The notes beneath the pieces were generated by a model. The model saw only the letters and a list, made by a program, of their open reading frames with translations, was not told the DNA's origin and made no database searches. Shown piece after piece: positions 1 to 64,000 of a stretch of 64,000 nt of DNA (positions are counted from its first letter, which is position 1; each line of letters opens with the position of its first letter). This DNA comes from Sabellastarte sp. h YS-2021. Lineage: Eukaryota; Annelida; Polychaeta; Sabellida; Sabellidae. Position numbers and translations under genes: made by a program. Location of the stretch: the NCBI GenBank assembly GCA_964017235.1, contig OZ024940.1, positions 28,266,573 through 28,330,572 of the forward strand, given 5' to 3'.

Positions 1-126
1 AGCTTACAATTGTTTAAATTTAAATTGCTTTCAAATTTAAACAATTGTAAGCTATTTCTGATGAAGGAGTGAAGCTCCGAAAGCTCAAATCCATTTTTTA
101 TTTTATATGCTCTTTGTTTATTATTT
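1..126. repeat. Right half of PLE terminal-repeat palindrome (cut by window start)
   Basis: Positions 1-21 are the end of the left arm, 22-32 the spacer and 33-90 a right arm that is perfect in the complete copy at 5981-6191. Weaker matching continues to about 126. The window opens inside this palindrome. Confidence 0.85.
58..82 (+). other. Hammerhead-core-like terminal motif
   Basis: CTGATGA, then GGAG/CTCC paired around a 5-nt loop, then GAAA. The conserved boxes and their order resemble a hammerhead ribozyme core. An extra A sits before the helix, and no partner for stem I is obvious next to the motif, so catalytic activity is unproven. Confidence 0.5.
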
Positions 127-735
127 CACAAAGAATAAATGAGACAAACTTTCTTCATGCTGTTGACATAAGATACATTTTGGGCTTTCGACAATTTTTC
201 TAAAGAAATATAAATATTGGTTCACTTGGTAAGATATGATGAACCATTCTATAAGTTACATCTCTGCTTTCCGGAGAAAGCAAAGGATGGTTCATGTTTC
301 GGAAAGATTTTGAAAAATCAATCTTTGGGAAGATATTTAAGATTCTTGGTGGTTTAACTTTCTCTTGTAAACAGAGAGAATTGAGCCCTTTTTAAAAGTC
401 ATTGACTGAAAGTCAAAGGATTTGTCAAGTTTAGATAAATCTTAAAAGCAGCTAGAGCATTAGCATAGAACACAGGCTTTTCAATTGAATCAAGACCACA
501 TCTTGAGATAAATATTCTCTCAGATCAAGCTTAAGCCAGTACATGGCAAAATTTTTCCATTTACAATGGCTACCATATAAAAGGTAGGTGAATAAAAATA
601 TTTTAGCTTTCATTAGATATAAGTAAGGGAAATACCACCACCAGCATAGCTGTTGTATAGCATTTCACATTTGAGACACTGTCTTGTTATTCCACAAAAA
701 GTGAATTTGAATTGGTATTTGAATTGGTTTGTGTT
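127..735. other. Unassigned AT-rich block upstream of P
   Basis: I see no coding signal and no family I recognise here. The piece around 338-500 recurs in unit B at about 15567-15733, so it behaves as a mobile or duplicated block. An inverted pair GATGAACCAT/ATGGTTCAT lies near 240-297. It could be a PLE 5' region or captured host DNA. Confidence 0.5.
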
Positions 736-760
736 CTGAGGAAGGAGTGAGGCTCCGAAA
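736..760 (+). other. Variant hammerhead-core-like motif at the 5' end of P
   Basis: CTGAGGA replaces CTGATGA; the GGAG/CTCC helix and GAAA are kept. An AT-rich hairpin and GCTCTTTT follow, as in the Q ends. It sits immediately before the P reading frame, and a related copy lies past the P 3' end in unit B (9893), as expected for terminal repeats of a PLE. Confidence 0.5.
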
Positions 761-813
761 TGTCAAATAATTGATATTATTGCTCTTTTATCATAACATT
801 TCTTTTCTTTGCT

Positions 814-1344
814 GTGTTTGAAGAAACAAAGAGCGAAGCAGCACATTTAAAAAGTTTATCAAGGTTTTGTTTCAAAGCTCCCAAAATGAGAAACTTGAAA
901 TCACAATTCCACAGTCGTCTGTGCACTTTCTTATCAAATTTCGGTACAAATGTGCAGTCGGAAGCTAGGGGAAAAGGTTTGGCCACTTTTAACAAAACAA
1001 CGTTTGCGTCTCAGAGAAGGTTTCTTACAACGTGTTTGCAAAGAAAAGTTATCCCAAATGGATTTTCACTTAAGTTCAACAGTTCATCGAGTAAAGGTAT
1101 TCTTCAAAGCTGTTCCTTTAACCTGATGAGAAATGCACTGAAAGATGTAACATGGAAAATTCAGGAACATTCAAAGAATCTTAAGGCAAGTACTCAAAAT
1201 CTTCAGGTTTGGTGTACCCATTCCAAGTTTGCCCAGATTTCACATTTTATTCATACATGCAACTATGAACTTTATTTTAAACTGGACGAAATCAAATGTA
1301 ATAAGTTGAAAGATCTTTTGCCCAAATTGGATGAAAAGGATTAG
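814..1344 (+). pseudogene. P piece 1: N-terminal PLE region
   Basis: A 176-codon open stretch rich in Lys, Ser and Phe with no motif I recognise. In the other full copies the frame starts earlier at an ATG overlapping the terminal motif (760 in this copy), giving 194 codons; here a T-to-G change makes a TGA at 772-774. It ends at TAG and overlaps the next piece by 14 nt in the +1 frame. It is probably the N-terminal part of the same polyprotein rather than a separate gene. Confidence 0.6.
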
Positions 1345-2053
1345 AATTCTATCCGATTTGGATAATTCAGAACGTTCACTTCTTAGAAAAGGTCTAGGAT
1401 TTGTTCTAGTTCACAAACAACCAGATCCAGTTCGAAGTCTTGAAGACCTCCATAGATTCCACCATAAGGTGAGACTTCATGCTTTTTTCAATAACCTGGA
1501 TCAGACTATTAACGAAAGAAACCATGCAAGTGATTTACCTGATGATGAAGTCATGAGCTTCAAGAGACAATCTAGGTCATCATTTACACCTAAAGAAGGT
1601 CAGTTTGACGCAGTTGATAGATTCATGTCAAAATGTTGTGATGATTTTTCTCAATCTAATTTTAAACCACCAAAAAGATCAAATTTGAAAGCAGATGAAG
1701 AAGAGGCCCTTCAAAAACTCAGAAAGAGAGAAGACATTGTTATCAAACCTGCTGATAAAGGGGGAGCTGTAGTTGTGTGGAGAAAGGATCTCTATTGTAA
1801 CGAAGCCAAGAAGCAATTATCATGTGAACAATTTTATACAAAACTTGATTGTGCCATCACTAACCAAATAAGTAAAACAGTAGAAAAAGAACTCAAATCA
1901 ATCATCTCTAAAGGTGAATTGCCAAAAACAGCATTGAACTTAGTGGTAGACAATCCTAAATGGAGTAATTTAATTACATGTTGCCCAAGATTCAGAAACT
2001 TGGAAACCCTGGTAGACCTGTTGTGTCCTCTTGTTCTTGCCCGACAACTTTGA
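1331..2053 (+). pseudogene. P piece 2: RT0 / start of reverse transcriptase
   Basis: A 240-codon piece. Residues 136-150 (EDIVIKPADKGGAVVVW) are the characteristic PLE segment just N-terminal to the RT fingers, and SLEDLHRFHHKVRLH near residues 37-50 also fits. After about residue 212 the reading is wrong: a roughly 2-nt insertion near 1971 hides a segment that in the other frame reads LPKIQKLGNPGRPVVSS, matching LPKIHKPGNPGRPVVSS in Q. Confidence 0.85.
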
Positions 2054-2110
2054 TATCCAAGTACCTTAGTGAGTTTTTGAAACCAATAGTTACCAAACTT
2101 ACCATCTTGT

Positions 2111-2527
2111 GTGAAAGACACTAATCATGCCTTGAAGATGATGGAAAACTTCCGATTTCAAGAAGAAAATGCTCTTCTTTTCACCATGGATATAAAGGGA
2201 CTTTACACTAATATACCCAATGACTATGGTCTTAACACAATGAAATATTTCCTAGAAAAACGTGAAATTCAGAATCCACCCACCCACACGTTATTAAGAC
2301 TTGCAGAACTTGTGTTGACACAAAATTGTTTCAGTTTTGATGATGCTTTCTATTCGCAAACAGGTGGGACAATGATTGGGACTCCATTTGGACCTGAATA
2401 TTCAAATTTGGCTGTTGGAAAATTTGAATTACACGTTGCTGATAGGTTCAATGGTGCTATGCCAGAATTTTCTCACAGATATATTGATGATGTAGTTGGT
2501 CCAACCTCCATCTTGAGAGTAGATTAA
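2111..2527 (+). pseudogene. P piece 3: reverse transcriptase palm
   Basis: A 138-codon piece with RT motif A (FTMDIKGLYTNIP, Asp27), motif B (QTGGTMIGTPFGPEYSNLA, 83-101) and motif C (YIDD, 124-127), so all the catalytic aspartates are present. One extra A near 2100 separates it from the preceding piece. An in-frame TAA at 2525-2527 ends it, and the same frame then continues with FIDYVCNFHPAFHFTF, the normal downstream RT sequence. Confidence 0.92.
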
Positions 2528-2634
2528 TTTATTGATTATGTGTGCAATTTCCATCCAGCTTTTCACTTTACTTTTGTTGTATCTGAGACAGAAATAGAAT
2601 TTTTGGATATAAAAATTTCAGTTTCCAGAAAAAA

Positions 2635-2859
2635 TTGTCCACCTCAGTACATTACAAGGCTACTGACAGTCATTCATATTTAAGATATGGTTCTTGCCAC
2701 CCAAAGGCTTGTAAAAATGCTATACCATACTCTCAGTTTTTAAGATTGAGAAGACTGTGTTCAGAAGAAAACGATTTTGTGTCAAAAGTGAATGAAATGG
2801 AAAATTTCTTTCTTGTGAGGGATTATCCCCAAAAAGGAATTGATAAAACAAAAACATAA
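2635..2859 (+). pseudogene. P piece 4: RT thumb / linker
   Basis: This open stretch contains YLRYGSCHPKACKNAIPYSQ and FLRLRRLCS, matching the Q protein segment that follows YIDD. There is no ATG; it is a continuation after a frameshift near 2630. A TAA at 2857-2859 interrupts it, and the same frame resumes into the next piece. Confidence 0.85.
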
Positions 2860-2907
2860 GTAATTGGAATCAATCGAGCTCAAGTTCTTCAAAAAAGACC
2901 AAAAGGG

Positions 2908-3519
2908 GTGAACACTACCTTCAATTCACACAGCCAAATGATAAAAAACATCATAGAAAGAAATTTTCACATTTTGCAATTGGATGATGAAGTAGGCTAC
3001 CTTTTCCAAGAGAAACCTTTAGTTTCATATCGTAGAGACCGAAATGTGAAAGATATGCTTGTACACGCAAACATTGGTGTAAATTCTAAAGTCGGCAAAA
3101 CTCGTAAATGTGTCCGGACAAGATGTTTTACCTGTCCTCATGTTTTTGATGATGTCCACCAAGTCAGAGGGCCAAAGGGTGTATACTCTCCAAAGGACAA
3201 CATTAGTTGTATCAGCAAAGATATAATATACTGTATCGAATGTTTGAAATGTGGTAGTCTTTACATAGGGGAAACTGAAAGAAGACTAGGGGACAGAATT
3301 CGAGAACATTTAAGAGATATAAAGACTAAGCAACCCCAGAAACAGGTATCTGTGCATTTTAACTCACAAGGGCATAGTTTGAATGACCTAAAAGTTCAAG
3401 TTTTATATCAAAATTTTAGGGACAAGTTTTCCAGAAAGGCAAAAGAAAGCTTTTTGATTCAAAAATTAGGCACTGTGTTTCCGGATGGGATGAATATAGA
3501 TGGGGGAATGGAAACTTAA
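2908..3519 (+). pseudogene. P piece 5: linker and GIY-YIG endonuclease
   Basis: This is the C-terminal third of the PLE protein. RDRNVKDMLVHA (44-54) is the conserved linker. Cysteines at 68, 73, 76, 101, 109, 112 and 115 form the Cys-rich segment. The nuclease follows: Y108-C-I, then YIGETERRLGDRIREH (119-134), then HFNSQGH (150-156). The GIY-YIG tyrosines, the downstream arginine and the Glu/His residues are all present, so the domain itself looks undamaged. A GTG begins the open frame, but the natural protein reads through from upstream. Confidence 0.93.
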
Positions 3520-3650
3520 AGTTTCTTATTATATTTACTTACCTTTTCTTTACATTTTCTTTCATATGGATATTACATATTCACTCTGTAATCTTTGCAT
3601 CCTTTGTATTTTGTATTTACATAAGATTTCTTCCATTTGGAACGCTAAAT
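3520..3650 (+). other. P 3' flank up to the A-unit deletion junction
   Basis: AT-rich sequence following the P stop, matching 9585-9708 in unit B except for a 7-bp duplication of TTGTATT near 3603-3616. At 3650/3651 it passes directly into gag sequence that lies at 18188 in unit B. Confidence 0.85.
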
Positions 3651-3940
3651 TGTGTCTCTTGAAAGCCAGAGTCATGGGCAGACTTGTTGGATTTTTCAAC
3701 ATGTAACCGGTTAAACGAATGCTCAGTTGGGCCCGAACCGTCACTGTCAGAATCATGCATAATTTGCCCACAGTCTATGTCACTGTCTGATACTGAAGAA
3801 TCTGAATCTTGGTGAGACATGGTTTGTTTTTGCCCCAACAAGTTCGTTACAAATTCGTTATCATCCGACATATGCAATTCAAACTGTACGTGAGATGTAT
3901 CAGACTTTTGTGAACGCAAATTATATTTTTTCTTCTCCAT
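3617..3940 (-). pseudogene. DIRS-like gag stub fused at the deletion junction (A1)
   Basis: The first 96 or so codons equal the start of the unit-B gag frame (17941-18477), including the acidic Ser/Asp stretch at 44-69. The last eleven codons come from the P 3' flank, because the unit-A deletion removed the rest of gag and all of pol. A 107-codon frame remains open by chance; there is no reason to expect a functional product. Confidence 0.8.
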
Positions 3941-4222
3941 ATAACACAGATCGAAAGACTAAGATAAATAAAACATATAACTAAAAACAACAATCAGTGG
4001 TACACGGAGAAGAAAAAAAGAATAAATTAAAATGTCCTTGAGGTGTTATCCCTTCCAAGTGTGAGCTGTAAATGGAAGAAGGGTTCAAATTTTTTGGCTA
4101 AAGAAGGCGTAGGGAGCCAATCAGAAGCCAGTTTACAACCAGCATGGTCATACATACTAAATGCCAGTTTAAGGTACCCTCTCAGGAATGATCTACCTGA
4201 CACCAAGGTGTCATCCCGCAAA
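3941..4222 (-). other. DIRS-like 5' leader remnant (A1)
   Basis: Sequence lying upstream of the gag ATG on the minus strand. It contains a 16-bp palindrome TGACACC-AA-GGTGTCA at 4198-4213. Short open frames on both strands overlap each other here, so I read it as noncoding leader or terminal repeat. It joins Q 3' DNA abruptly at about 4222. Confidence 0.55.
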
Positions 4223-4524
4223 TAAACAAAATTACATCAAAATGACGTTTTAACAAAGCAAAACACGTTATTATTACTTAAAACACATATTCAATCATAT
4301 TTACTCATATTTTTTTTTTACTAATTAAAATTTTTAATTTTTTTGCAATTTTTCACTATGACGTCACAAAATCGAAAATTTGAAAATTTTAAAATTTGTT
4401 TTAAAAAATCACTATAATGTCAAAAAAATCCAAAATTTCTTAAATTCGCACAATTTTAACAATGACAATAAAAATCAATATCCTCAACAAAAGAATTCAA
4501 ATTAAACAAATTGTAAGAGAGATA
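4223..4524 (-). other. Q 3' AT-rich region with a TGACGTCA site (A1)
   Basis: Minus-strand continuation downstream of the Q nuclease, rich in poly-A/T runs. One CRE-type palindrome TGACGTCA lies at 4359-4366. The equivalent plus-strand region behind Q+ is 15131-15480 and has two such sites. Confidence 0.7.
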
Positions 4525-4717
4525 ACAGTTATACTACAATTCCATTGTCCCTGTTCATACCCAGTGGGTACACACAGCCAAATTTCATAATGAGTTGAAG
4601 TGAATAGCTACCTCTCTATGTCTATTCTTGTTCTTGGCATCTCTCAAGTGGTCTCTTATCCTATCTCCTAACCTCCTTTCTGTTTCCCCGATATAAATCT
4701 CTCCACATCTAATACAT

Positions 4718-4959
4718 TCAATGCAATAAATATCCATATAAAATAGTAAACAAAGTAAAAACAAAGAGCGTATAAAATAAATAAATTTATTTAAGCTTTT
4801 TACAAGCTGTTTCTGATGAAGGAGTGAGGCTCCGAAAGCTTAAATAAATTTATTTATTTTATACGCTCTTTGTTTTTACTATGTTTACTATTTTATATGG
4901 ATATTTAAAAAGAGCCAAGCGGCATAACTTTATAAACTTGGAATATCAATGCAATAAAT
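4718..4959 (+). mobile_element. 214-bp fold-back insertion with 14-bp target-site duplication (A1)
   Basis: TCAATGCAATAAAT occurs at 4718-4731 and again at 4946-4959, and removing one copy with 4732-4945 restores the Q nuclease sequence. The insert has 68-bp inverted arms (4732-4799 and 4835-4902, one mismatch seen), a hammerhead-core-like motif between them, and a one-sided 43-bp tail. The arms and tail match the Q terminal sequence. The best reading is a short, inverted PLE terminal-repeat insertion made by retrotransposition machinery. Confidence 0.85.
4813..4837 (+). other. Hammerhead-core-like motif inside the fold-back insertion
   Basis: CTGATGA, GGAG/CTCC helix with loop TGAGG, GAAA. 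The opposite-strand copy expected on the other side of the fold-back is reduced to a few bases (4800-4812), so the structure is a half-deleted head-to-head pair. Confidence 0.5.
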
Positions 4960-5523
4960 GACATCTTTGGTGATACAAGAAAAACTACCTGACGGAGTAA
5001 ATTTACCTCTAGGGCCCTCAACTGTGTGTACCTCATTGAAAACAAAGGGACATGTAAGACAACGTTTTCTACCAAATGGCAAAGTTATGCCAGACACATC
5101 TTTTGAACTGAATCTAGAGTGGACCAGCATGTCTCTTATGTTCCTGTCCCGGTATGAAATCAGAGGTTTTTGTTGAAACAAATAGCCCACTTCCTCGTCA
5201 AGATTTAGCATGTGAAAATTCTTCTCCACAATATCTGTTATTACCTTACTGTGAGAGTTGTATGTAAGGGTAAGTATAACCCTATTCATTTCTTCAGCAG
5301 GTTCTTTTTGTTTCAAAGCATCAGCTCTACTGATATTAGAAACTCTATCTATGGCCTTAGAAACAATATCCTGGGGATAATCTCTCGCTAGAAAGAAATG
5401 TTCCATTTCCTTCTCTTTTGCCTTCAAATCCTGCCTAGGAGCTTTAAACGGAGAAATTGTGAAAATGGAATAGCATTTTTGCATGACTTTGGGTGGGAGG
5501 AACCATATTTAAGGTAAGCATTT

Positions 5524-5775
5524 ATAAGCACTCTTGTTTAGACAGCCTCCCTTCGCAAATTTCTTTTTGTTCATCTGATAAAAATTTTAAATCTTCAACT
5601 TAAGCCAGGTCCAAATAATCAACTAAGCTGTGATCCATAGCTTCTTTTGACATTAATTGTTTATAAAAATTCCGGACATGTTTTAAAATTTCCTTCTGCT
5701 TATTAACTAAAATTCCATCCACTAGCAATTTATCTAAAGTACGTTTTTCTGCTCTTTTTTGTTTCTTTATTTAAG
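5524..5775 (-). pseudogene. LINE-like (non-LTR retrotransposon) fragment (A1)
   Basis: Read on the minus strand, this gives a short stretch including LDKLLVDGILVNKQKEILKH, then FYKQLM, then after an in-frame TAA (5600-5602) LSDEQKEICEGRLSKQECL. The pattern FY...LS-E---CEG-----E is typical of the segment before the RT domain in L1/CR1-type LINE proteins. Only about 80 codons are present, so the clade cannot be named. It abuts Q at about 5523. Confidence 0.6.
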
Positions 5776-5934
5776 AAAAATCTTCACAATATATTCAAAA
5801 TTCAAATAATTATTTGAAACTATCAAAATATATCGCTCCTCACTTCAATATCGTGCTGAAGCTGCTCTCAGATACTTTTCATTTTCGTGTAATTTATTTT
5901 CCGATATGTACAGTGTAATATGTAATGCCAGACA
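5776..5934. other. Unassigned AT-rich spacer (A1)
   Basis: No coding signal or recognised repeat. Units A and B differ here by diagnostic substitutions (C versus T near 5878, G versus A near 5891), which is useful for telling units apart. Confidence 0.5.
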
Positions 5935-5980
5935 CTTCTTTTGAACTGAATCTAGAGTGGACCAGCATGTCTCTTATGTT
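5935..5980 (-). mobile_element. 46-bp orphan piece of Q
   Basis: Nearly identical to about 5088-5133 in the Q linker region (minus strand), isolated between unassigned DNA and the terminal-repeat palindrome. It is probably the 5'-truncated coding end of the inverted terminal repeat that follows. Confidence 0.75.
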
Positions 5981-6036
5981 AAATAATAAACAAAGTAAAA
6001 ACAAAGAGCATATCAAATAAATAGATTTATTTGAGC

Positions 6037-6061
6037 TTTCGGAGCTTCACTCCTTCATCAG
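6037..6061 (-). other. Hammerhead-core-like motif, left arm
   Basis: Minus-strand copy of CTGATGA-helix-GAAA. Downstream on the minus strand an AT-rich hairpin (CAAATAAA/TTTATTTG) is followed by GCTCTTTG. Confidence 0.5.
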
Positions 6062-6122
6062 AAATAGCTTACAATTGTTTAAATTTAAATTGCTTTCAAA
6101 TTTAAACAATTGTAAGCTATTT

Positions 6123-6147
6123 CTGATGAAGGAGTGAAGCTCCGAAA
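6123..6147 (+). other. Hammerhead-core-like motif, right arm (B1)
   Basis: Same as 58-82, in unit B1. The other unit boundaries carry it at 20661-20685, 26726-26750, 41264-41288, 47329-47353 and 61867-61891. Confidence 0.5.
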
Positions 6148-6191
6148 GCTCAAATCCATTTTTTATTTTATATGCTCTTTGTTTATTATTT

Positions 6192-6800
6192 CACAAAGAA
6201 TAAATGAGACAAACTTTCTTCATGCTGTTGACATAAGATACATTTTGGGCTTTCGACAATTTTTCTAAAGAAATATAAATATTGGTTCACTTGGTAAGAT
6301 ATGATGAACCATTCTATAAGTTACATCTCTGCTTTCCGGAGAAAGCAAAGGATGGTTCATGTTTCGGAAAGATTTTGAAAAATCAATCTTTGGGAAGATA
6401 TTTAAGATTCTTGGTGGTTTAACTTTCTCTTGTAAACAGAGAGAATTGAGCCCTTTTTAAAAGTCATTGACTGAAAGTCAAAGGATTTGTCAAGTTTAGA
6501 TAAATCTTAAAAGCAGCTAGAGCATTAGCATAGAACACAGGCTTTTCAATTGAATCAAGACCACATCTTGAGATAAATATTCTCTCAGATCAAGCTTAAG
6601 CCAGTACATGGCAAAATTTTTCCATTTACAATGGCTACCATATAAAAGGTAGGTGAATAAAAATATTTTAGCTTTCATTAGATATAAGTAAGGGAAATAC
6701 CACCACCAGCATAGCTGTTGTATAGCATTTCACATTTGAGACACTGTCTTGTTATTCCACAAAAAGTGAATTTGAATTGGTATTTGAATTGGTTTGTGTT
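6192..6800. other. Unassigned AT-rich block upstream of P (B1)
   Basis: Essentially the same sequence as 127-735. Nothing coding is seen. Confidence 0.5.
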
Positions 6801-6825
6801 CTGAGGAAGGAGTGAGGCTCCGAAA
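6801..6825 (+). other. Variant hammerhead-core-like motif, P 5' end (B1)
   Basis: CTGAGGA-helix-GAAA; the final A of GAAA is the first base of the P start codon, so the structured motif and the reading frame touch. Confidence 0.5.
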
Positions 6826-9584
6826 TGTCAAATAATTTATATTATTGCTCTTTTATCATAACATTTCTTTTCTTTGCTGTGTTTGAAGAAACAAAGAGCG
6901 AAGCAGCACATTTAAAAAGTTTATCAAGGTTTTGTTTCAAAGCTCCCAAAATGAGAAACTTGAAATCACAATTCCACAGTCGTCTGTGCACTTTCTTATC
7001 AAATTTCGGTACAAATGTGCAGTCGGAAGCTAGGGGAAAAGGTTTGGCCACTTTTAACAAAACAACGTTTGCGTCTCAGAGAAGGTTTCTTACAACGTGT
7101 TTGCAAAGAAAAGTTATCCCAAATGGATTTTCACTTAAGTTCAACAGTTCATCGAGTAAAGGTATTCTTCAAAGCTGTTCCTTTAACCTGATGAGAAATG
7201 CACTGAAAGATGTAACATGGAAAATTCAGGAACATTCAAAGAATCTTAAGGCAAGTACTCAAAATCTTCAGGTTTGGTGTACCCATTCCAAGTTTGCCCA
7301 GATTTCACATTTTATTCATACATGCAACTATGAACTTTATTTTAAACTGGACGAAATCAAATGTAATAAGTTGAAAGATCTTTTGCCCAAATTGGATGAA
7401 AAGGATTAGAATTCTATCCGATTTGGATAATTCAGAACGTTCACTTCTTAGAAAAGGTCTAGGATTTGTTCTAGTTCACAAACAACCAGATCCAGTTCGA
7501 AGTCTTGAAGACCTCCATAGATTCCACCATAAGGTGAGACTTCATGCTTTTTTCAATAACCTGGATCAGACTATTAACGAAAGAAACCATGCAAGTGATT
7601 TACCTGATGATGAAGTCATGAGCTTCAAGAGACAATCTAGGTCATCATTTACACCTAAAGAAGGTCAGTTTGACGCAGTTGATAGATTCATGTCAAAATG
7701 TTGTGATGATTTTTCTCAATCTAATTTTAAACCACCAAAAAGATCAAATTTGAAAGCAGATGAAGAAGAGGCCCTTCAAAAACTCAGAAAGAGAGAAGAC
7801 ATTGTTATCAAACCTGCTGATAAAGGGGGAGCTGTAGTTGTGTGGAGAAAGGATCTCTATTGTGACGAAGCCAAGAAGCAATTATCATGTGAACAATTTT
7901 ATACAAAACTTGATTGTGCCATCACTAACCAAATAAGTAAAACAGTAGAAAAAGAACTCAAATCAATCATCTCTAAAGGTGAATTGCCAAAAACAGCATT
8001 GAACTTAGTGGTAGACAATCCTAAATGGAGTAATTTAATTACATGTTGCCCAAGATTCAGAAACTTGGAAACCCTGGTAGACCTGTTGTGTCCTCTTGTT
8101 CTTGCCCGACAACTTTGATATCCAAGTACCTTAGTGAGTTTTTGAAACCAATAGTTACCAAACTTACCATCTTGTGTGAAAGACACTAATCATGCCTTGA
8201 AGATGATGGAAAACTTCCGATTTCAAGAAGAAAATGCTCTTCTTTTCACCATGGATATAAAGGGACTTTACACTAATATACCCAATGACTATGGTCTTAA
8301 CACAATGAAATATTTCCTAGAAAAACGTGAAATTCAGAATCCACCCACCCACACGTTATTAAGACTTGCAGAACTTGTGTTGACACAAAATTGTTTCAGT
8401 TTTGATGATGCTTTCTATTCGCAAACAGGTGGGACAATGATTGGGACTCCATTTGGACCTGAATATTCAAATTTGGCTGTTGGAAAATTTGAATTACACG
8501 TTGCTGATAGGTTCAATGGTGCTATGCCAGAATTTTCTCACAGATATATTGATGATGTAGTTGGTCCAACCTCCATCTTGAGAGTAGATTAATTTATTGA
8601 TTATGTGTGCAATTTCCATCCAGCTTTTCACTTTACTTTTGTTGTATCTGAGACAGAAATAGAATTTTTGGATATAAAAATTTCAGTTTCCAGAAAAAAT
8701 TGTCCACCTCAGTACATTACAAGGCTACTGACAGTCATTCATATTTAAGATATGGTTCTTGCCACCCAAAGGCTTGTAAAAATGCTATACCATACTCTCA
8801 GTTTTTAAGATTGAGAAGACTGTGTTCAGAAGAAAACGATTTTGTGTCAAAAGTGAATGAAATGGAAAATTTCTTTCTTGTGAGGGATTATCCCCAAAAA
8901 GGAATTGATAAAACAAAAACATAAGTAATTGGAATCAATCGAGCTCAAGTTCTTCAAAAAAGACCAAAAGGGGTGAACACTACCTTCAATTCACACAGCT
9001 AAATGATAAAAAACATCATAGAAAGAAATTTTCACATTTTGCAATTGGATGATAAAGTAGGCTACCTTTTCCAAGAGAAACCTTTAGTTTCATATCGTAG
9101 AGACCGAAATGTGAAAGATATGCTTGTACACGCAAACATTGGTGTAAATTCTAAAGTCGGCAAAACTCGTAAATGTGTCCGGACAAGATGTTTTACCTGT
9201 CCTCATGTTTTTGATGATGTCCACCAAGTCAGAGGGCCAAAGGGTGTATACTCTCCAAAGGACAACATTAGTTGTATCAGCAAAGATATAATATACTGTA
9301 TCGAATGTTTGAAATGTGGTAGTCTTTACATAGGGGAAACTGAAAGAAGACTAGGGGACAGAATTCGAGAACATTTAAGAGATATAAAGACTAAGCAACC
9401 CCAGAAACAGGTATCTGTGCATTTTAACTCACAAGGGCATAGCTTGAATGACCTAAAAGTTCAAGTTTTATATCAAAATTTTAGGGACAAGTTTTCCAGA
9501 AAGGCAAAAGAAAGCTTCTTGATTCAAAAATTAGGCACTGTGTTTCCGGATGGGATGAATATAGATGGGGGAATTGAAACTTAA
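6825..9584 (+). pseudogene. Penelope-like retroelement P, B1 copy
   Basis: Pieces: 6825-7409 (194 codons, ATG overlapping the terminal motif), 7396-8118 (RT0), 8176-8592 (RT with YIDD), 8700-8924 (thumb) and 9003-9584 (linker and GIY-YIG). It has the same shared frameshifts and stops as A1, plus a B-specific stop at 9000-9002 (CAA to TAA) just before the linker. The N-terminal frame is intact here, unlike in A1. Confidence 0.93.
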
Positions 9585-9869
9585 AGTTTCTTATTATATT
9601 TACTTACCTTTTCTTTACATTTTCTTTCATATGGATGTTGCATATTCACTCTGTAATCTTTGCATCCTTTGTATTTACATAAGATTTCTTCCATTTGGAA
9701 CGCTAAATGAGGTAATTTTTACGTTATAATATGTGGTGACGTTTTTTTGACGTCTTTATGACGTTTATACTACATACCGTAATTATCAATTGCTACGTCA
9801 TAAAAATTTTGTTTATAACGTAGAAAGGATGGAGGGATTGCTTTGTGATGTTTATTTTGTATATTGTTT
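9585..9869 (+). other. P 3' flank (B1)
   Basis: AT-rich sequence with several TGACGT/ACGTCA half-sites between 9730 and 9805. It continues past the unit-A deletion point (9708) and leads into a second P 5' end. Confidence 0.6.
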
Positions 9870-10196
9870 ATGTATTTGAATTGGTTTGTGTTCTGAGGAA
9901 GGAGTGAGGCCCCGAAATGTCAAATAAATTTATATTATTTCTCTTTTATAATAACATTTCTTTTATTTTGTGTGTTTGAAGAAACAAAGACCAAAGCAGC
10001 ACATTTAAAAGTTTACCAAGGTTTTGTTTTAAAGCTGCCAAAATGAGAAACTTGATATCACAATTCCCCAGTCGTCTGTGCACTTTCTTATCAAATTTCG
10101 GTACAAATGTGCAGTCGGAAGGTAGGCCAAAAGGATTGGCCACTTTTAACAAAACAAGGTTTGTGTCTAAGTTATCCCCAATGGATTTTTACTTAA
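9870..10196 (+). mobile_element. Second P 5' end (terminal repeat or truncated tandem copy)
   Basis: Aligns to the P 5' end from about 6780 through the first 120 or so codons, with many substitutions and a deletion of about 37 bp near 10167. It starts with its own motif at 9893-9917. Direct repetition of the 5' end downstream of the body is the expected layout of PLE terminal repeats; a truncated tandem copy is the alternative. Confidence 0.75.
9893..9917 (+). other. Variant hammerhead-core-like motif, P 3' side
   Basis: CTGAGGA-GGAG-loop-CCCC-GAAA. One helix base changed, leaving an A/C mismatch, so this copy pairs less well than 6801-6825. The distance between the two P motifs, 3,092 bp, gives the length of the P body. 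Confidence 0.45.
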
Positions 10197-10262
10197 ATAT
10201 TCCAAGTTACTAAAGTTATGCTGCTTGGCTCTTTAAATATCCATATAAAATAGTAAACAAAG
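10197..10262 (-). mobile_element. Q 5' terminal fragment, inverted
   Basis: Matches the tail of the Q terminal sequence on the minus strand: the GCATAACTT region through AAAGAGCC to the TTTGTTTACTATTTTATATGG segment, as at 4880-4945. Confidence 0.75.
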
Positions 10263-10385
10263 TAAATTTGAATGTTCCTGCATTTTCCATGTTACATCTT
10301 TCAGTGCATTTCTCATCAGGTTAAAGGAACAGCTTTGAAGAATACCTTTACTTCTCCTCGATGAACCGTTGAACTTAAGTAAAAA
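10263..10385 (-). mobile_element. P N-terminal fragment, inverted
   Basis: Minus-strand copy of P piece 1 around 1072-1180, slightly diverged. With the plus-strand P end at 9870-10196 it brackets the Q fragment, making a small rearranged fold-back. Confidence 0.75.
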
Positions 10386-10500
10386 TCCATATAAAATAGT
10401 AAACAAAGTAAAAACAAAGAGCATTTCAAATAAACAGATTTATTTGAGCTTTCGGAGCTTCACTCCTTCATCAGAAATGGCTTACAATTGTTTAAATTTG
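10386..10500 (-). mobile_element. Q terminal repeat, inverted, with motif 10450-10474
   Basis: The minus strand carries CTGATGA-GGAG/CTCC-GAAA at 10450-10474 followed by an AT-rich hairpin and a GCTCTTTG segment, as in the unit-boundary palindrome, but here in single orientation behind a Q 3' region. Confidence 0.75.
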
Positions 10501-10925
10501 AAAGAAAGCTCTTTTTATATGTAAATGAACAAAATTACATCAAAATGACGTTTTAATAAAGCAAAACACGACATTATTACTTAAAACACATATTTAGTCA
10601 CATTTACGTCATGAATTTTAAGATGACGTCACAAAAAAAATTTTTTTTACTATGACGTCACAAAAATCAAAATTTTTAAATTTTTTTGCAATTTTTCACT
10701 ATGACGTCACAAAATCGAAAATTTTCAAATTTTTAAAAATTTTTTTTAAATTCACTATAATGTCAAAAAAATCCAAAATTTCTTATATAAGAACAATTTG
10801 GGCTATGACAATAAAAATTAATATCCTCCACAAAAGAATTTGAATTAAACAAATTGTAAGAGAGATAACATTTATACTACAATTCCATTGTCCCTGTTCA
10901 TACCCAGTGGGTACACACAGCCAAA
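10501..10925 (-). mobile_element. Q 3' region, inverted, with three TGACGTCA sites
   Basis: Minus-strand Q tail: the last Q codons (CVPTGYEQGQWN, about 10870-10925) and the AT-rich 3' region. TGACGTCA lies at 10624-10631, 10653-10660 and 10702-10709. Together with 10386-10500 this gives the order of a Q 3' end: nuclease, AT-rich region, terminal motif. Confidence 0.75.
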
Positions 10926-11034
10926 TTTGGATGATGAAGTAGGCTACCTTTTCCAAGAGAAACCTTTAGTTTCATATCGTAGAGTCCGAAATGTGAAAGA
11001 TATGCTTGTACACTCAAACATTGGTGTAAATTCT
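10926..11034 (+). mobile_element. Short duplicate of the P2 linker segment
   Basis: Matches P2 at about 11795-11903, including P2-specific bases, but is joined directly to the P2 RT at 11035. A local duplication or template switch explains it. Confidence 0.75.
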
Positions 11035-12334
11035 ATGACTATGGTCTTAACACAATGAAATATTTCCTAGAAAAACGTGAAATTCAGAATCCACCCACCC
11101 ACACGTTATTAAGACTTGCAGAACTTGTGTTGACACAAAATTGTTTCAGTTTTGATGATGCTTTCTATTCGCAAACAGGTGGGACAATGATTGGGACTCC
11201 ATTTGGACCTGAATATTCAAATTTGGCTGTTGGAAAATTTGAATTACACGTTGCTGATAGGTTCAATGGTGCTATGCCAGAATTTTCTCACAGATATATT
11301 GATGATGTAGTTGGTCCAACCTCCATCTTGAGAGTAGATTAATTTATTGATTATGTGTGCAATTTCCATCCAGCTTTTCACTTTACTTTTGTTGTATCTG
11401 AGACAGAAATAGAATTTTTGGATATAAAAATTTCAGTTTCCAGAAAAAATTGCCCACCTCAGTACATTACAAGGCTACTGACAGTCATTCATATTTAAGA
11501 TATGGTTCTTGCCACCCAAAGGCTTGTAAAAATGCTATACCATACTCTCAGTTTTTAAGATTGAGAAGACTGTGTTCAGAAGAAAACGATTTTGTGTCAA
11601 AAGTGAATGAAATGGAAAATTTCTTTCTTGTGAGGGATTATCCCCAAAAAGGAATTGATAAAACAAAAACATAAGTAATTGGAATCAATCGAGCTCAAGT
11701 TCTTCAAAAAAGACCAAAAGGGGTGAACACTACCTTCAATTCACACAGCCAAATGATAAAAAACATCATAGAAAGAAATTTTCACATTTTGCAATTGGAT
11801 GATAAAGTAGGCTACCTTTTCCAAGAGAAACCTTTAGTTTCATATCGTAGAGTCCGAAATGTGAAAGATATGCTTGTACACTCAAACATTGGTGTAAATT
11901 CTAAAGTCGGCAAAACTCTTAAATGTGGTTGGACAAGATGTTTTACCTGTCCTCATGTTTTTGATGATGTCCACCAAGTCAGAGGGCCAAAGGGTGTATA
12001 TTCTCCAAAGGACAACTTTAGTTGTATCAGCAAAGATATAATATACTGTATCGAATGTTTGAAATGTGGTAGTCTATACATAGGGGCAACTGAAAGAAGA
12101 TTAGGGGACAGAATTCGAGAACATTTAAGTGATATAAAGACTAAGCAACCCCAGAAACAGGTATCTGTGCATTTTAACTCACAAGGGCATAGCTTGAATG
12201 ACCTGAAAGTTCAAGTTTTATATCAAAATTTTAGGGACAAGTTTTCCAAAAAGGCAAAAGAAAGCTTCTTGATTCAAAAATTAGGCACTGTGTTTCCGGA
12301 TGGGATGAATATAGATGGGGGAATTGTAACTTAA
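11035..12334 (+). pseudogene. Penelope-like retroelement P2, 5'-truncated (B1)
   Basis: Pieces: 11055-11342 (RT from just after motif A, with motif B and YIDD), 11450-11674 (thumb) and 11723-12334 (linker and GIY-YIG). It begins mid-RT, so catalytic Asp of motif A is missing. It shares the P stop after the YIDD segment and the P thumb frameshift, so it descends from the same dead copy. In the nuclease YIGET became YIGAT and HLRD became HLSD; the first change may hit a conserved position. Confidence 0.9.
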
Positions 12335-12552
12335 AGTTTCTTATTATATTTACTTAACTTTTCTTTACATTTTCTTTCATATGCATATTACATATTCACT
12401 CTGTAATCCTTGCATCCTTTGTATTTATATAAGATTTCTTCCATTTGGAACGCTAAATGAGGTAATTTTTATGTTATATTGTGTGGTGACGTGTTTTTAA
12501 CTACAGGATTTTTAAAATTAAGAATGAAAACAATTTAGACGAGAAAGAAAAT
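12335..12552 (+). other. P2 3' flank
   Basis: Diverged copy of the P 3' flank (9585-9745), followed by about 50 bp I cannot assign before the Q inverted pair. Confidence 0.6.
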
Positions 12553-13614
12553 ATTTGGTAATACAAGAAAAACTACCTGAAGGAGTAAATTTACCTCTAG
12601 GGCCCTCAACTGTGTGTACCTCATTGAAAACAAAGGGACATGTAAGACAACGTTTTCTACCACATAGCAAAGTTATGCCAGAAACATCTTTTGAACTGAA
12701 TCTAGAGTGGACCAGCATGTCTCTTATGTTCCTGTCCCTACGGTATGAAATCAGAGGTTTTTGTTGAAACAAATAGCCCACTTCCTCGTCAAGATTTAGC
12801 ATGTGAAAATTCTTCTCCACAATGTCCATTATTACTTTACTGTGAGAGTTGTATGTAAGGGTAAGTATAACCCTATTCATTTCTTCAGCAGGTTCTTTTT
12901 GTTTCAAAGCATCAGCTCTACTGATATGAGAAACTCTATCTATGGCCTTAGAAACAATATCCTGGGGATAATCTCTCTCTAGAAAGAAATGTTCCATTTC
13001 CTTCTCTTTTGCCTTCAAATCCTGCCTATCAGAACATAGGCGCTTTAAACGGAGAAATTGTGAAAATGGAATAGCACTTACTTCAGAAACTGTGAAAGTA
13101 TATTGAAAGGATGGGTGGAAATTGCTGACAAAATTTATAAATCTATCCAGATTTTCTCTAGACATTGAAGTTGCACCCAAAATATCATCAATATACCTTT
13201 TGTGAAACTCAGGAAAAGAACCATCATATGTTTCAGAGATTTCATTTTCCTGCTTCCCCACAGCCAAACAAGAGTATTCTGGGCCGAATGGTGTGCCTAT
13301 CATTGTACCGCCAGTTTGTGAATAGTAGTTATCACCAAACTTGAAGCAATTCTGTGTCAAAACTAGTTCTGCTAGTCTCAGAAGGGTATGTGTTGGAGGA
13401 TTCTGAACATTTCTTTTCTCCAAAAAGTATTTTAGTGCATTCAGACCATACTCATTGGGAATATTAGTATAGAGACCCTTAATGTCCATGGTAAACAAAA
13501 GCCTATTTTCACCTCGAAGTCGAAAATTTCGCACCAAGTTCAATGCATGATTAGTGTCCTTTACAAAAGTTGGCAAAGCTCTCACAATGGGCTTGAGTGT
13601 ATCGCTGAGATATA
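12553..13614 (-). pseudogene. Penelope-like retroelement Q, minus copy of the inverted pair (B1)
   Basis: The open frame runs 12518-13735 (405 codons), but only 12553-13614 is true Q. RT motif A (LLFTMDIKGLYTNIPNEYG), motif B (QTGGTMIGTPFGPEYSCLA), YIDD, thumb, linker (RDRNIRDMLVHS) and Cys-rich segment are all in one frame without stops. A deletion of about 40 codons joins TVSE to AIPFSQ. It stops just before the nuclease; the last residues are foreign. The first 40 residues or so come from antisense of the neighbouring Q+ copy. RT0 and GIY-YIG are absent, so it is not a working element. Confidence 0.9.
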
Positions 13615-14837
13615 TGTGCAAGAGACCTTCCAGATACGGCAGCAGCTTTATTGGTTGAGAAACCGAAATGTAGCAATTTATATATTTTGCCGAAAATCCA
13701 TAAGCCAGGAAACCCAGGTAGGCCAGTTGTTTCATCTTGTTCCTGTCCTACTAATGTATTTTCAAAATATCTCAGTGATACACTCAAGCCCATTGTGAGA
13801 GCTTTGCCAACTTTTGTAAAGGACACTAATCATGGATTGAACTTGGTGCGAAATTTTCGATTTCGAGGTGAAAATAGGCTTTTGTTTACTATGGACATTA
13901 AGGGTCTCTATACTAATATTCCCAATGAGTATGGTCTGAATGCACTAAAATACTTTTTGGAGAAAAGAAATGTTCAGAATCCCCCAACACATACCCTTCT
14001 GAGACTAGCAGAACTAGTTTTGACACAGAATTGCTTCAAGTTTGGTGATAACTACTATTCACAAACTGGCGGTACAATGATAGGCACACCATTCGGGCTA
14101 GAATACTCTTGTTTGGATGTGGGGAAGCAGGAAATTGAAATCTCTGAAACATATGATGGTCCTTTTCCTGAGTTTCACAAAAGGTATATTGATGATATTT
14201 TGGGTGCAACTTCAATGTCTAGAGAAAATCTGGATAGATTTATAAATTTTGTCAGCAATTTCCACCCATCCTTTCAATATACTTTCACAGTTTCTGAATT
14301 TCCTTGACATCAAGTTGTGTGTCAAAGCAGATGCAATTAGCACATGGGTTTACTACAAAGAAACTGACAGTCATGCTTACCTTAAATATGGTTCCTCCGA
14401 TCCAAAGTCATGCAAAAATGCTATTCCATTTTCACAATTTCTCCGTTTAAAGCGCCTATGTTCTGATACGCAGGATTTGAAGGCAAAAGAGAAGGAAATG
14501 GAACATTTATTTCTAGCGAGAGATTATCCCCAGGATATTGTTTCTAAGGCCATAGATAGAGTTTCTCATATCAGTAGAGCTGATGCTTTGAAACAAAAAG
14601 AACCTGCTGAAGAAATGAATAGGGTTATACTTACCCTTACATACAACTCTCACAGTAAAGTAATAAAGGACATGCTGGTCCAGTCTAGAATCAGTTCAAA
14701 AGATGTTTCTGGCATAACTTTGCCATGTGGTAGAAAACGTTGTCTTACATGTCCGTTTGTTTTCAATGAGGTACACACAGTTGAGGGCCCTAGAGGCAAA
14801 TTTACTCCTTCAGGTAGTTTTTCTTGTATCACCAAAG
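12553..14837. repeat. Q/Q inverted repeat (roughly 1-kb arms, about 152-bp spacer)
   Basis: The left arm 12553-13614 and right arm 13767-14837 are the same Q segment in opposite orientation; the spacer 13615-13766 belongs to the plus copy. Each arm lacks a different internal piece, so pairing would leave loops. Confidence 0.9.
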
Positions 14838-15130: not shown

Positions 15131-15480
15131 ATTCTTTTGTTGAGGATATTGATTTTTATTGTCATTGTTAAAATTGTGCGAATTTAAGAAATTTTGGATT
15201 TTTTGACATTATAGTGATTTTTAATAAAATTTTAAAAAATTTTTAAATTTTCGATTTTGTGATGTCATATTGAAAAATTGCAAAAAAAATTAAAATTTTA
15301 ATTTTTGTGACGTCATAGTAAAAAAAAAATTTTTTGTGACGTCATCTTGAAATTTATGACGTAAATATGACTGAATATGTGTTTCACGTAATAATGACGT
15401 GTTTTGCTTTGTTAAAACGTCATTTTGATGTAATTTTGTTTATTTACATATGAAAAGAGCTTTCTTTCAAATTTAAACAA
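15131..15480 (+). other. Q 3' AT-rich region with TGACGTCA sites
   Basis: Follows the Q+ stop. TGACGTCA palindromes lie at 15308-15315 and 15337-15344, with further ACGT half-sites to 15425. Long A and T runs surround them. It ends at the AAATTTAAACAATTG block that precedes the terminal motif. Confidence 0.7.
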
Positions 15481-60276: not shown

Positions 60277-61267
60277 ACTACAATTCCATTGTCCCTGTTC
60301 ATACCCAGTGGGTACACACAGCCAAATTTCATAATGAGTTGAAGTGAATAGCTACCTCTCTATGTCTATTCTTGTTCTTGGCATCTCTCAAGTGGTCTCT
60401 TATCCTATCTCCTAACCTCCTTTCTGTTTCCCCGATATAAATCTCTCCACATCTAATACATTCAATGCAATAAATATCCATATAAAATAGTAAACAAAGT
60501 AAAAACAAAGAGCGTATAAAATAAATAAATTTATTTAAGCTTTTTACAAGCTGTTTCTGATGAAGGAGTGAGGCTCCGAAAGCTTAAATAAATTTATTTA
60601 TTTTATACGCTCTTTGTTTTTACTATGTTTACTATTTTATATGGATATTTAAAAAGAGCCAAGCGGCATAACTTTATAAACTTGGAATATCAATGCAATA
60701 AATGACATCTTTGGTGATACAAGAAAAACTACCTGACGGAGTAAATTTACCTCTAGGGCCCTCAACTGTGTGTACCTCATTGAAAACAAAGGGACATGTA
60801 AGACAACGTTTTCTACCAAATGGCAAAGTTATGCCAGACACATCTTTTGAACTGAATCTAGAGTGGACCAGCATGTCTCTTATGTTCCTGTCCCGGTATG
60901 AAATCAGAGGTTTTTGTTGAAACAAATAGCCCACTTCCTCGTCAAGATTTAGCATGTGAAAATTCTTCTCCACAATATCTGTTATTACCTTACTGTGAGA
61001 GTTGTATGTAAGGGTAAGTATAACCCTATTCATTTCTTCAGCAGGTTCTTTTTGTTTCAAAGCATCAGCTCTACTGATATTAGAAACTCTATCTATGGCC
61101 TTAGAAACAATATCCTGGGGATAATCTCTCGCTAGAAAGAAATGTTCCATTTCCTTCTCTTTTGCCTTCAAATCCTGCCTAGGAGCTTTAAACGGAGAAA
61201 TTGTGAAAATGGAATAGCATTTTTGCATGACTTTGGGTGGGAGGAACCATATTTAAGGTAAGCATTT
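60277..61267 (-). pseudogene. Retroelement Q, interrupted copy (B3)
   Basis: Open stretch 60674-61228, with the fold-back insertion at 60462-60703. Confidence 0.9.
60462..60703 (+). mobile_element. Fold-back insertion with 14-bp duplication (B3)
   Basis: Copy of 4718-4959. Confidence 0.85.
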
Positions 61268-61519
61268 ATAAGCACTCTTGTTTAGACAGCCTCCCTTCGC
61301 AAATTTCTTTTTGTTCATCTGATAAAAATTTTAAATCTTCAACTTAAGCCAGGTCCAAATAATCAACTAAGCTGTGATCCATAGCTTCTTTTGACATTAA
61401 TTGTTTATAAAAATTCCGGACATGTTTTAAAATTTCCTTCTGCTTATTAACTAAAATTCCATCCACTAGCAATTTATCTAAAGTACGTTTTTCTGCTCTT
61501 TTTTGTTTCTTTATTTAAG
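61268..61519 (-). pseudogene. LINE-like fragment (B3)
   Basis: Copy of 5524-5775. Confidence 0.6.
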
Positions 61520-61724
61520 AAAAATCTTCACAATATATTCAAAATTCAAATAATTATTTGAAACTATCAAAATATATCGCTCCTCACTTCAATATCGTGC
61601 TGAAGCTGCTCTCAGATATTTTTCATTTTCGTATAATTTATTTTCCGATATGTACAGTGTAATATGTAATGCCAGACACTTCTTTTGAACTGAATCTAGA
61701 GTGGACCAGCATGTCTCTTATGTT

Positions 61725-61935
61725 AAATAATAAACAAAGTAAAAACAAAGAGCATATCAAATAAATAGATTTATTTGAGCTTTCGGAGCTTCACTCCTTC
61801 ATCAGAAATAGCTTACAATTGTTTAAATTTAAATTGCTTTCAAATTTAAACAATTGTAAGCTATTTCTGATGAAGGAGTGAAGCTCCGAAAGCTCAAATC
61901 CATTTTTTATTTTATATGCTCTTTGTTTATTATTT
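61725..61935. repeat. Terminal-repeat palindrome at the B3/A4 boundary
   Basis: Copy of 5981-6191. Confidence 0.92.
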
Positions 61936-64000
61936 CACAAAGAATAAATGAGACAAACTTTCTTCATGCTGTTGACATAAGATACATTTTGGGCTTTCGA
62001 CAATTTTTCTAAAGAAATATAAATATTGGTTCACTTGGTAAGATATGATGAACCATTCTATAAGTTACATCTCTGCTTTCCGGAGAAAGCAAAGGATGGT
62101 TCATGTTTCGGAAAGATTTTGAAAAATCAATCTTTGGGAAGATATTTAAGATTCTTGGTGGTTTAACTTTCTCTTGTAAACAGAGAGAATTGAGCCCTTT
62201 TTAAAAGTCATTGACTGAAAGTCAAAGGATTTGTCAAGTTTAGATAAATCTTAAAAGCAGCTAGAGCATTAGCATAGAACACAGGCTTTTCAATTGAATC
62301 AAGACCACATCTTGAGATAAATATTCTCTCAGATCAAGCTTAAGCCAGTACATGGCAAAATTTTTCCATTTACAATGGCTACCATATAAAAGGTAGGTGA
62401 ATAAAAATATTTTAGCTTTCATTAGATATAAGTAAGGGAAATACCACCACCAGCATAGCTGTTGTATAGCATTTCACATTTGAGACACTGTCTTGTTATT
62501 CCACAAAAAGTGAATTTGAATTGGTATTTGAATTGGTTTGTGTTCTGAGGAAGGAGTGAGGCTCCGAAATGTCAAATAATTTATATTATTGCTCTTTTAT
62601 CATAACATTTCTTTTCTTTGCTGTGTTTGAAGAAACAAAGAGCGAAGCAGCACATTTAAAAAGTTTATCAAGGTTTTGTTTCAAAGCTCCCAAAATGAGA
62701 AACTTGAAATCACAATTCCACAGTCGTCTGTGCACTTTCTTATCAAATTTCGGTACAAATGTGCAGTCGGAAGCTAGGGGAAAAGGTTTGGCCACTTTTA
62801 ACAAAACAACGTTTGCGTCTCAGAGAAGGTTTCTTACAACGTGTTTGCAAAGAAAAGTTATCCCAAATGGATTTTCACTTAAGTTCAACAGTTCATCGAG
62901 TAAAGGTATTCTTCAAAGCTGTTCCTTTAACCTGATGAGAAATGCACTGAAAGATGTAACATGGAAAATTCAGGAACATTCAAAGAATCTTAAGGCAAGT
63001 ACTCAAAATCTTCAGGTTTGGTGTACCCATTCCAAGTTTGCCCAGATTTCACATTTTATTCATACATGCAACTATGAACTTTATTTTAAACTGGACGAAA
63101 TCAAATGTAATAAGTTGAAAGATCTTTTGCCCAAATTGGATGAAAAGGATTAGAATTCTATCCGATTTGGATAATTCAGAACGTTCACTTCTTAGAAAAG
63201 GTCTAGGATTTGTTCTAGTTCACAAACAACCAGATCCAGTTCGAAGTCTTGAAGACCTCCATAGATTCCACCATAAGGTGAGACTTCATGCTTTTTTCAA
63301 TAACCTGGATCAGACTATTAACGAAAGAAACCATGCAAGTGATTTACCTGATGATGAAGTCATGAGCTTCAAGAGACAATCTAGGTCATCATTTACACCT
63401 AAAGAAGGTCAGTTTGACGCAGTTGATAGATTCATGTCAAAATGTTGTGATGATTTTTCTCAATCTAATTTTAAACCACCAAAAAGATCAAATTTGAAAG
63501 CAGATGAAGAAGAGGCCCTTCAAAAACTCAGAAAGAGAGAAGACATTGTTATCAAACCTGCTGATAAAGGGGGAGCTGTAGTTGTGTGGAGAAAGGATCT
63601 CTATTGTAACGAAGCCAAGAAGCAATTATCATGTGAACAATTTTATACAAAACTTGATTGTGCCATCACTAACCAAATAAGTAAAACAGTAGAAAAAGAA
63701 CTCAAATCAATCATCTCTAAAGGTGAATTGCCAAAAACAGCATTGAACTTAGTGGTAGACAATCCTAAATGGAGTAATTTAATTACATGTTGCCCAAGAT
63801 TCAGAAACTTGGAAACCCTGGTAGACCTGTTGTGTCCTCTTGTTCTTGCCCGACAACTTTGATATCCAAGTACCTTAGTGAGTTTTTGAAACCAATAGTT
63901 ACCAAACTTACCATCTTGTGTGAAAGACACTAATCATGCCTTGAAGATGATGGAAAACTTCCGATTTCAAGAAGAAAATGCTCTTCTTTTCACCATGGAT
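61810..64000. repeat. Array unit A4, cut by window end
   Basis: The fourth short unit begins at the palindrome and stops inside the P reverse transcriptase. It has the Asn codon at 63607-63609, which groups it with A1 and A3. The other two A-diagnostic sites lie beyond the window. Confidence 0.9.
62569..64000 (+). pseudogene. Retroelement P, A4 copy, cut by window end
   Basis: Pieces 62569-63153, 63140-63862 and the start of the RT palm from 63920. The window ends at the Met-Asp of motif A. Confidence 0.9.

Follow-up and report, generated by a model that had tools for sequence, protein, structure and literature searches.

A very young tandem array, most likely, with a 20.6-kb unit rich in Penelope-like retroelement debris in the annelid Sabellastarte sp.

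Results

The window, that is, the whole 64,000-bp stretch of contig OZ024940.1 that was analysed, consists of three 20,603-bp periods (3 x 20,603 = 61,809) and 2,191 bp of a fourth, arranged head to tail. When every lag between 100 and 60,000 is compared, the identity is highest at a lag of 41,206 (99.969%, 7 of 22,794 positions differing), and at a lag of 20,603 it is 99.956%, with 19 differences in 43,397 positions. At 61,809, a single position differs among 2,191. The next best lag, 55,744, reaches only 62.5%, a value that is due to a 6,065-bp duplication inside the unit. Since the lag is constant across the whole window, there is no indel between the periods. A preliminary description had reported three complete periods and part of a fourth, free of indels and with few substitutions, and these numbers bear it out.

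Delimited by constant-lag identity, with an arbitrary phase and no strand, the periods lie at 1-20603, 20604-41206 and 41207-61809, followed by the partial one at 61810-64000. Periods 1 and 2 are distinguished by 10 sites, periods 2 and 3 by 9, and periods 1 and 3 by 5. In the assembled window, the head-to-tail copies and their constant period are those of a tandem array, or megasatellite.

The unit itself was found to be a higher-order repeat, in which a 6.07-kb block X occurs twice in tandem and is followed by an 8.48-kb block Y, none of them being assigned a strand. The first copy, X1 (6,066 bp), lies at 18187-24252 and spans the arbitrary period boundary, the second, X2 (6,058 bp), at 3650-9707, and Y (8,479 bp) at 9708-18186; the joints of this structure were read. 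X1 and X2 are separated by 14 substitutions and 2 gaps over some 6,060 bp, whereas two periods differ by 5–10 substitutions in 20,603 bp. This X-X-Y order is absent from the preliminary description.

Two further duplications were found. The stretch 11035-12501 is an older direct duplicate (plus strand) of 8285-9751 at a lag of 2,750, with 28 differences in 1,467 bp, and Y contains a large inverted repeat at 13082-14298, in which 13082-13613 and 13767-14298 face each other across a 153-bp spacer with 10 differences in 532 bp. The divergence thus ranks from 1.9% for the duplicate at the 2.75-kb lag, through 0.23% for X1 and X2, to 0.02–0.05% for the periods. The joint of the X duplication, at 3649/3650, shows at most 1 bp of microhomology. 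The left edge of X falls inside the open frame 17941-18495, whose cut copy is 3617-3958, and the right edge of X inside the stretch common to the older duplicate pair; neither edge is therefore an evident element end.

We now consider the variable sites, which number 12 among the 20,603 unit positions (8 transitions and 4 transversions, counted from the listing). Each full period carries its own substitutions, with 3, 7 and 2 private to periods 1, 2 and 3, and equality is not rejected (chi-square 3.5, 2 degrees of freedom, calculated by hand). At three of the 12 sites, 1799, 2989 and 3720, period 2 matches the paralogous X copy, and periods 1 and 3 have the other base in common. Under independent random substitution this has a probability of ca 1.6e-8, assuming 13 diagnostic sites; a recount gave 14, which alters the value little. 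The pattern therefore requires either exchange or a common ancestry of periods 1 and 3. The converted-looking sites are patchy, in that at X-alignment position 5352, located between two of them, period 2 keeps the X1 base. Haplotype switching within an assembled diploid array could mimic the pattern.

Turning to the content of the unit, tblastn with fetched retroelement proteins gave Penelope-like matches over 10,418 bp, about half of it, and this assignment is firm. Element A lies in X1 at 775-3519 (plus strand) and is not one continuous frame, being composed of frames 775-1344 and 1310-2053, a reverse transcriptase (RT) piece at 2141-2524 and a GIY-YIG frame at 2860-3519. It recurs in X2 at 6816-9584 (plus strand) with the same broken layout. 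Element B is represented by a fragment in X2 at 4505-5550 (minus strand; X1 copy at 19043-20088), by a 409-residue open frame at 12518-13747 (minus strand) whose RT match is under the Pfam cut-off, and by a copy in the opposite orientation at 13597-15130 (plus strand), with an RT frame at 13609-14307 and GIY-YIG at 14246-15130 in a different frame.

The Pfam scan covered 29 sequences, namely 22 window open frames of at least 70 residues and 7 protein records. GIY-YIG (PF01541) scored above the cut-off in three of the 22 frames, each downstream of RT similarity, and RVT_1 appeared under the cut-off in two (E 8.9e-6 and 1.5e-5). The endonuclease domain is thus found after RT in separate frames, and none of the listed open frames of the window unites the two. 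Among the best 120 of 174 matches, the named ones are from animals (Acropora millepora at 51%, Babylonia, Antedon, Nematostella and others), the sole non-animal being P0089, labelled as a Bacteroidetes metagenome bin, at 34%. A bacterial, viral or plasmid origin was also considered, but the 38 and 90 pattern matches to genome contigs in two scans yielded none that was confirmed. Viral contigs gave no relative in two scans and a single weak 30% match in a third.

DIRS-like protein matches cover 1,618 bp, ca 8% of the unit (tblastn, fetched proteins). They include the N-terminal part of a pol at 15798-17264 (minus strand), which is broken off inside RT where Penelope pseudo-LTR sequence (15725-15856) starts. 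This cut copy has no Pfam match; its complete relatives P0122 and P0124 carry RT and an RNase H-like domain (PF00078, PF13456). A tyrosine recombinase was not found in the 22 window frames or the 3 relatives scanned, which truncation or another frame could explain, and the DIRS-like label is no more than plausible. Two adjacent open frames at 17452-17940 and 17941-18495 (minus strand) are candidate gag-like frames by their position upstream of pol, and the upper one crosses the Y/X1 boundary at 18186/18187. Neither has a Pfam match, and only 17695-17853 matches fetched proteins.

Altogether, retroelement proteins cover 12,036 bp of the unit, or 58.4% (tblastn), and 42% matches none of those fetched. 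The unmatched part includes the Penelope pseudo-LTR copies and element A's upstream frames, together with stretches that fit no class, and it may contain sequence that is not of retroelement origin. The unit had been described as made entirely of nested dead retroelements, with Penelope-like, DIRS-like and LINE-like debris. Most of it does match such elements, "entirely" being too strong, and of the three classes the LINE-like one is not supported, as no LINE-type endonuclease or RT was detected in the 22 window open frames scanned with Pfam, and no LINE domain in the 7 protein records either.

A perfect palindrome is located at 6029-6155 (no strand), with 58-bp arms at 6029-6086 and 6098-6155 around an 11-bp centre and an X1 copy at 20567-20693. 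By analogy with the layout in PMC3846280, it can be read as an inverted pseudo-LTR junction, and related copies show the same arrangement of pseudo-LTRs with a palindrome where they meet. A candidate hammerhead-like core (CTGANGA, a GGAG/CTCC-type hairpin and GAAA; core only) precedes element A at 736-760 (plus strand). Counting both strands, each period holds 11 such cores, and the window holds 35 where 0.00 are expected. Weak candidates for helix I (4–5 bp) and helix III (2 bp) were found at the CTGATGA copies except that at 15494, and at none of the CTGAGGA copies; the helix II count in this check fails on an A-C first pair. The predicted fold of 700-800 is not a hammerhead (z −1.19), and Rfam gives no hammerhead at E<=1 in 1-22000. 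Minimal type I hammerheads are reported in Penelope-like elements (PMC7229834).

The 23 Rfam matches at E<=1 in 1-22000 are all under the gathering scores and were rejected as hairpin artefacts. All but one of them, 22 in number, are miRNA hairpin models that fall on the palindromes near 6090 and 4820 or on the X1 copies of these two; the exception is a lncRNA model at 14865-15068. No tRNA was found in 1-22000, and no solved structure matched the two relatives tried.

Finally, of 256 fetched proteins the window encodes exactly only P0035, which is recorded with a 407,722-bp contig. P0241, whose record gives an equal contig size, is 99.5% identical to the best window frames, and it combines residues E and I, a pairing absent from all six X copies spanning both sites and from the related Y frame. 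Further near-identical copies therefore probably lie outside the window, the sameness of the contig being assumed from equal size. P0003, P0125, P0243 and P0244, with 407,722-bp contig records as well, are diverged relatives that the window does not encode.

Discussion

The array most probably stems from a very recent tandem amplification. It belongs to a known kind, but its unit is unusually long and the history of that unit is still legible. The interpretation that we favour, with a probability of roughly 0.78, is that a retroelement graveyard was amplified as DNA in steps and then homogenised. The starting point would be a patch of animal genome full of broken copies of Penelope-like elements, together with a DIRS-like one that is truncated. 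Head-to-tail amplification at the DNA level would follow, the unit growing from the 2.75-kb lag to 6.07 kb and then to 20.6 kb. Non-homologous repair or template switching may have created the first tandem joints, possibly with help from the palindromes. Unequal exchange and gene conversion among the nearly identical units would then have produced the later copies and kept them uniform. The unit is expected to have no function beyond that of a neutral heterochromatin-type satellite.

A bolder version, which we hold to be doubtful, is that the satellite has been caught soon after birth, while the elements it came from, a nested series of three duplications and the first exchanges between copies are all legible, and that the palindromic inverted Penelope-like pseudo-LTRs were the fragile sites that began the amplification.

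The preliminary description left the choice between recent amplification, homogenisation and an assembly error. It is unlikely that the assembler passed several times through a pair of haplotypes, or through no more than two real copies, with the array shorter or absent in the genome. A 20.6-kb unit likely exceeds many accurate long reads, the periods are at least 99.95% identical, and the three paralogue-matching sites of period 2 could reflect read or haplotype mixing. However, a simple paste is hard to reconcile with periods that each carry substitutions of their own (12 sites, no indel), head-to-tail closure requires at least one real joint, and the P0241 haplotype, assumed to be on the same contig, is missing from the window. 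The best reading is that a retroelement-derived unit was recently amplified in tandem or homogenised.

Lower still we rate an extrachromosomal circle of ca 20.6 kb, present or past, from which the array would have been unrolled or re-integrated as a rolling-circle product. The periods are exactly equal in length, and one saltatory event of this type would account for a divergence close to zero more readily than gradual exchange. On the other hand, the derived bases common to periods 1 and 3 against period 2 would need later exchange or a longer history, and the four diverged relatives on the apparent 407,722-bp contig indicate that this is not just a circle. Production of the period by Penelope retrotransposition itself is barely credible. 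These elements typically have their pseudo-LTRs in tandem and inverted arrangement (PMC11167929, PMC3846280), but the unit combines two Penelope-like families in both orientations with a truncated DIRS-like segment, and the X boundary at 18187 falls within an open frame that lies upstream of the DIRS-like segment. Because truncated elements of two classes are present in both orientations, retrotransposition would have made the pieces and not the period.

Several known systems come closest to the array. Tandem insertions have reportedly been put forward by McGurk and Barbash (2018) as seeds of satellite DNA, transposon copies being the homologous substrate for expansion; the X joint here differs, being no shared element end and having 1 bp of homology at the most. 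Penelope-like pseudo-LTR arrays (PMC11167929, PMC3846280) share with the unit GIY-YIG and RT, inverted pseudo-LTR copies, a junction palindrome and a candidate hammerhead-like core near the ORF start, whereas the 20.6-kb period is a block of many fragments and not an element tandem. In humans, gene-free megasatellites with transposon patterns have 5.4-kb and ~6-kb units, and a 12-kb Gor1 array is described in the same paper (PMC2588610). They too are long tandem units marked by repeating transposable-element patterns, but shorter than the present one, a higher-order repeat in which Penelope-like debris predominates. Among the paper titles listed, none concerns a 20-kb Penelope-built array, and we do not claim its absence from print; PMC11899658, PMC6567227 and PMC13042054 contributed no deciding evidence.

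A unit with a 20.6-kb period at 99.95% identity could easily be collapsed or inflated in assembly, which calls for caution. Composite satellite monomers have been proposed to come from transposon graveyards (PMC12628747), and they consist, as here, of several shuffled and decayed transposable elements that were then tandemised. Those monomers usually retain only short stretches of similarity, while in the present 20.6-kb unit fragments of more than 1 kb are legible. A young array with legible elements, joints and duplication order would make the graveyard scenario testable.

Results and Discussion

A self-identity scan over every lag from 100 to 60,000 yields near-identity only at 20,603 bp and its double, with 7 mismatches over 22,794 positions at the latter; the three-period lag of 61,809, tested separately, gives 1 mismatch in 2,191. 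The preliminary description had claimed a 20,603-bp periodicity without net indel and with few substitutions, and this is real as sequence, with 19 mismatches over 43,397 positions at one period. The match keeps this one offset up to the last base of the window, so the periods are free of indels relative to one another. The unit has 12 variable positions (8 transitions and 4 transversions), and the complete periods differ at 10 (1 vs 2), 9 (2 vs 3) and 5 (1 vs 3) of them, that is, by 0.024–0.049%.

The 20,603-bp unit is itself a higher-order repeat, which the preliminary description does not mention. The secondary lags of 6,065 and 14,538 add up to 20,603, and self-comparison gives the order as two copies of a ca 6.07-kb block in direct tandem, X1 (18187–24252, crossing the arbitrary period boundary) and X2 (3650–9707), followed by a block Y (9708–18186). 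Between X1 and X2 there are 14 substitutions and two gaps (8 bp in all). The left edge of X1 falls within an unbroken open frame, 17941–18495, whose counterpart in X2 is shortened to 3617–3958. Since the frame is whole at X1 and cut in X2, the Y/X1 junction probably preserves the original arrangement, and the joint created by the duplication would be that between X1 and X2, at 3649/3650, where the microhomology is at most one base. The right edge of X is no element end either, since it lies inside a stretch present in an older direct duplicate (8285–9751 vs 11035–12501, lag 2,750, 28 of 1,467 sites differing).

Block Y contains an inverted repeat with 532-bp arms and 10 differences; this large, near-perfect repeat, at 13082–14298 with a 153-bp spacer, is made of Penelope-like element B. 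Short AT-rich tandem repeats with TGACGTCA-like cores in both orientations are also found in Y, at 10616–10781 and 15226–15325. The larger the duplicated unit, the lower the divergence, which falls from about 1.9% to 0.23% and then to 0.02–0.05%. The founding joint of the 20.6-kb tandem would lie somewhere in Y, and only an outside copy could reveal it.

Among the 22 open frames scanned, three have a GIY-YIG endonuclease domain above the Pfam cut-off and two a reverse transcriptase below it. No frame spanning both was found among those of at least 150 aa in 1–22000 and, in parts, among shorter ones. In the best 120 of 174 matches, the nearest proteins are Penelope-type frames, mostly from unnamed records; the best named match is from Acropora millepora (51%), and the remaining named ones are animal, except one labelled as a Bacteroidetes metagenome bin. 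A weak 30% match to Penelope GIY-YIG proteins was also seen in the viral-collection contig IMGVR_UViG_3300027985_000872 (166,618 bp), at L001 8001–8279. The inverted copies abut in a palindrome whose 58-bp arms match perfectly. This fits the layout of bdelloid Penelope elements, for which PMC3846280 describes inverted pseudo-LTRs and palindromes at the junction.

A hammerhead-like core motif occurs 35 times in the window (0.00 expected), with 11 copies per period (736, 6801, 9893 and eight more) that have a fixed hairpin and are located at Penelope pseudo-LTRs; they also occur directly ahead of the frames of element A, the other Penelope-like family. Minimal hammerheads are reported for Penelope-like elements in PMC11167929 and PMC7229834. 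An Rfam search of 1–22000 returned no hammerhead, candidates for helices I and III are weak or lacking, and the predicted fold of 700–800 is no hammerhead, with 26 of 200 shuffles folding equally well. The core is therefore a candidate ribozyme only.

On the minus strand, 15798–17264 matches pol proteins, and the two longest of these relatives scanned have a reverse transcriptase and an RNase H-like domain. The copy in the window, which we take to be DIRS-like from its resemblance, ends within the reverse transcriptase, at the start of Penelope pseudo-LTR sequence; the scanned frames yielded no tyrosine recombinase. With the 256 fetched proteins as tblastn queries, 10,418 bp of the 20,603 are matched by Penelope-like and 1,618 bp by DIRS-like proteins. 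The earlier view that the unit consists entirely of retroelements is too strong, protein similarity accounting for 58.4% of it; the remainder is unclassified apart from pseudo-LTR copies.

As to an assembly product, the periods are not identical pastes, because every full period carries its own substitutions. At 1799, 2989 and 3720, period 2 agrees with the other X copy, and periods 1 and 3 have the alternative base in common; four derived bases, polarised by paralogues, are private to period 2 (1374, 8271, 9921 and 12026), and 17429 is not polarisable. Such a pattern is expected from gene conversion, or if periods 1 and 3 are more closely related to each other within a longer array; haplotype mixing could mimic it. 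Of the fetched proteins, the window encodes only P0035 without any difference; the record of this protein gives a contig of 407,722 bp, on which the window very likely lies. The record of P0241 gives a contig of equal length; this protein is 99.5% identical to the best window frames but pairs E and I at two residues, a combination absent from all six X copies that span the two sites and from the Y frame. The more diverged relatives P0003, P0125, P0243 and P0244 are also recorded with such a contig (P0243 on two contigs). Equal length is the ground for treating the contig as shared; on this reading, additional copies, some nearly identical and some older, seem to be present beyond the window; the member counts in these protein records are not readable as copy numbers.

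Since the period combines a truncated third element with two Penelope-like families that occur in both orientations, it was amplified as DNA and not through retrotransposition. The best account of the data is that non-homologous tandem joints would have formed first, followed by unequal exchange and conversion between the copies. A rolling-circle burst is possible as the last amplification step, and that the palindromes took part is a guess.

Conclusion

Far longer repeat units exist, for example in the mouse Sp100-rs cluster. PMC2588610 describes megasatellites in humans whose units, of 5.4 kb and about 6 kb, show transposon patterns, and an array of 12-kb units; transposon graveyards are proposed as a source of composite satellite monomers in a 2025 review (PMC12628747), and tandem or partial tandem arrangements of Penelope-like elements are described in PMC11167929. 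With such megasatellites, graveyards and tandems already described, the array is of a known kind, as a new member with a long unit and a very young age.
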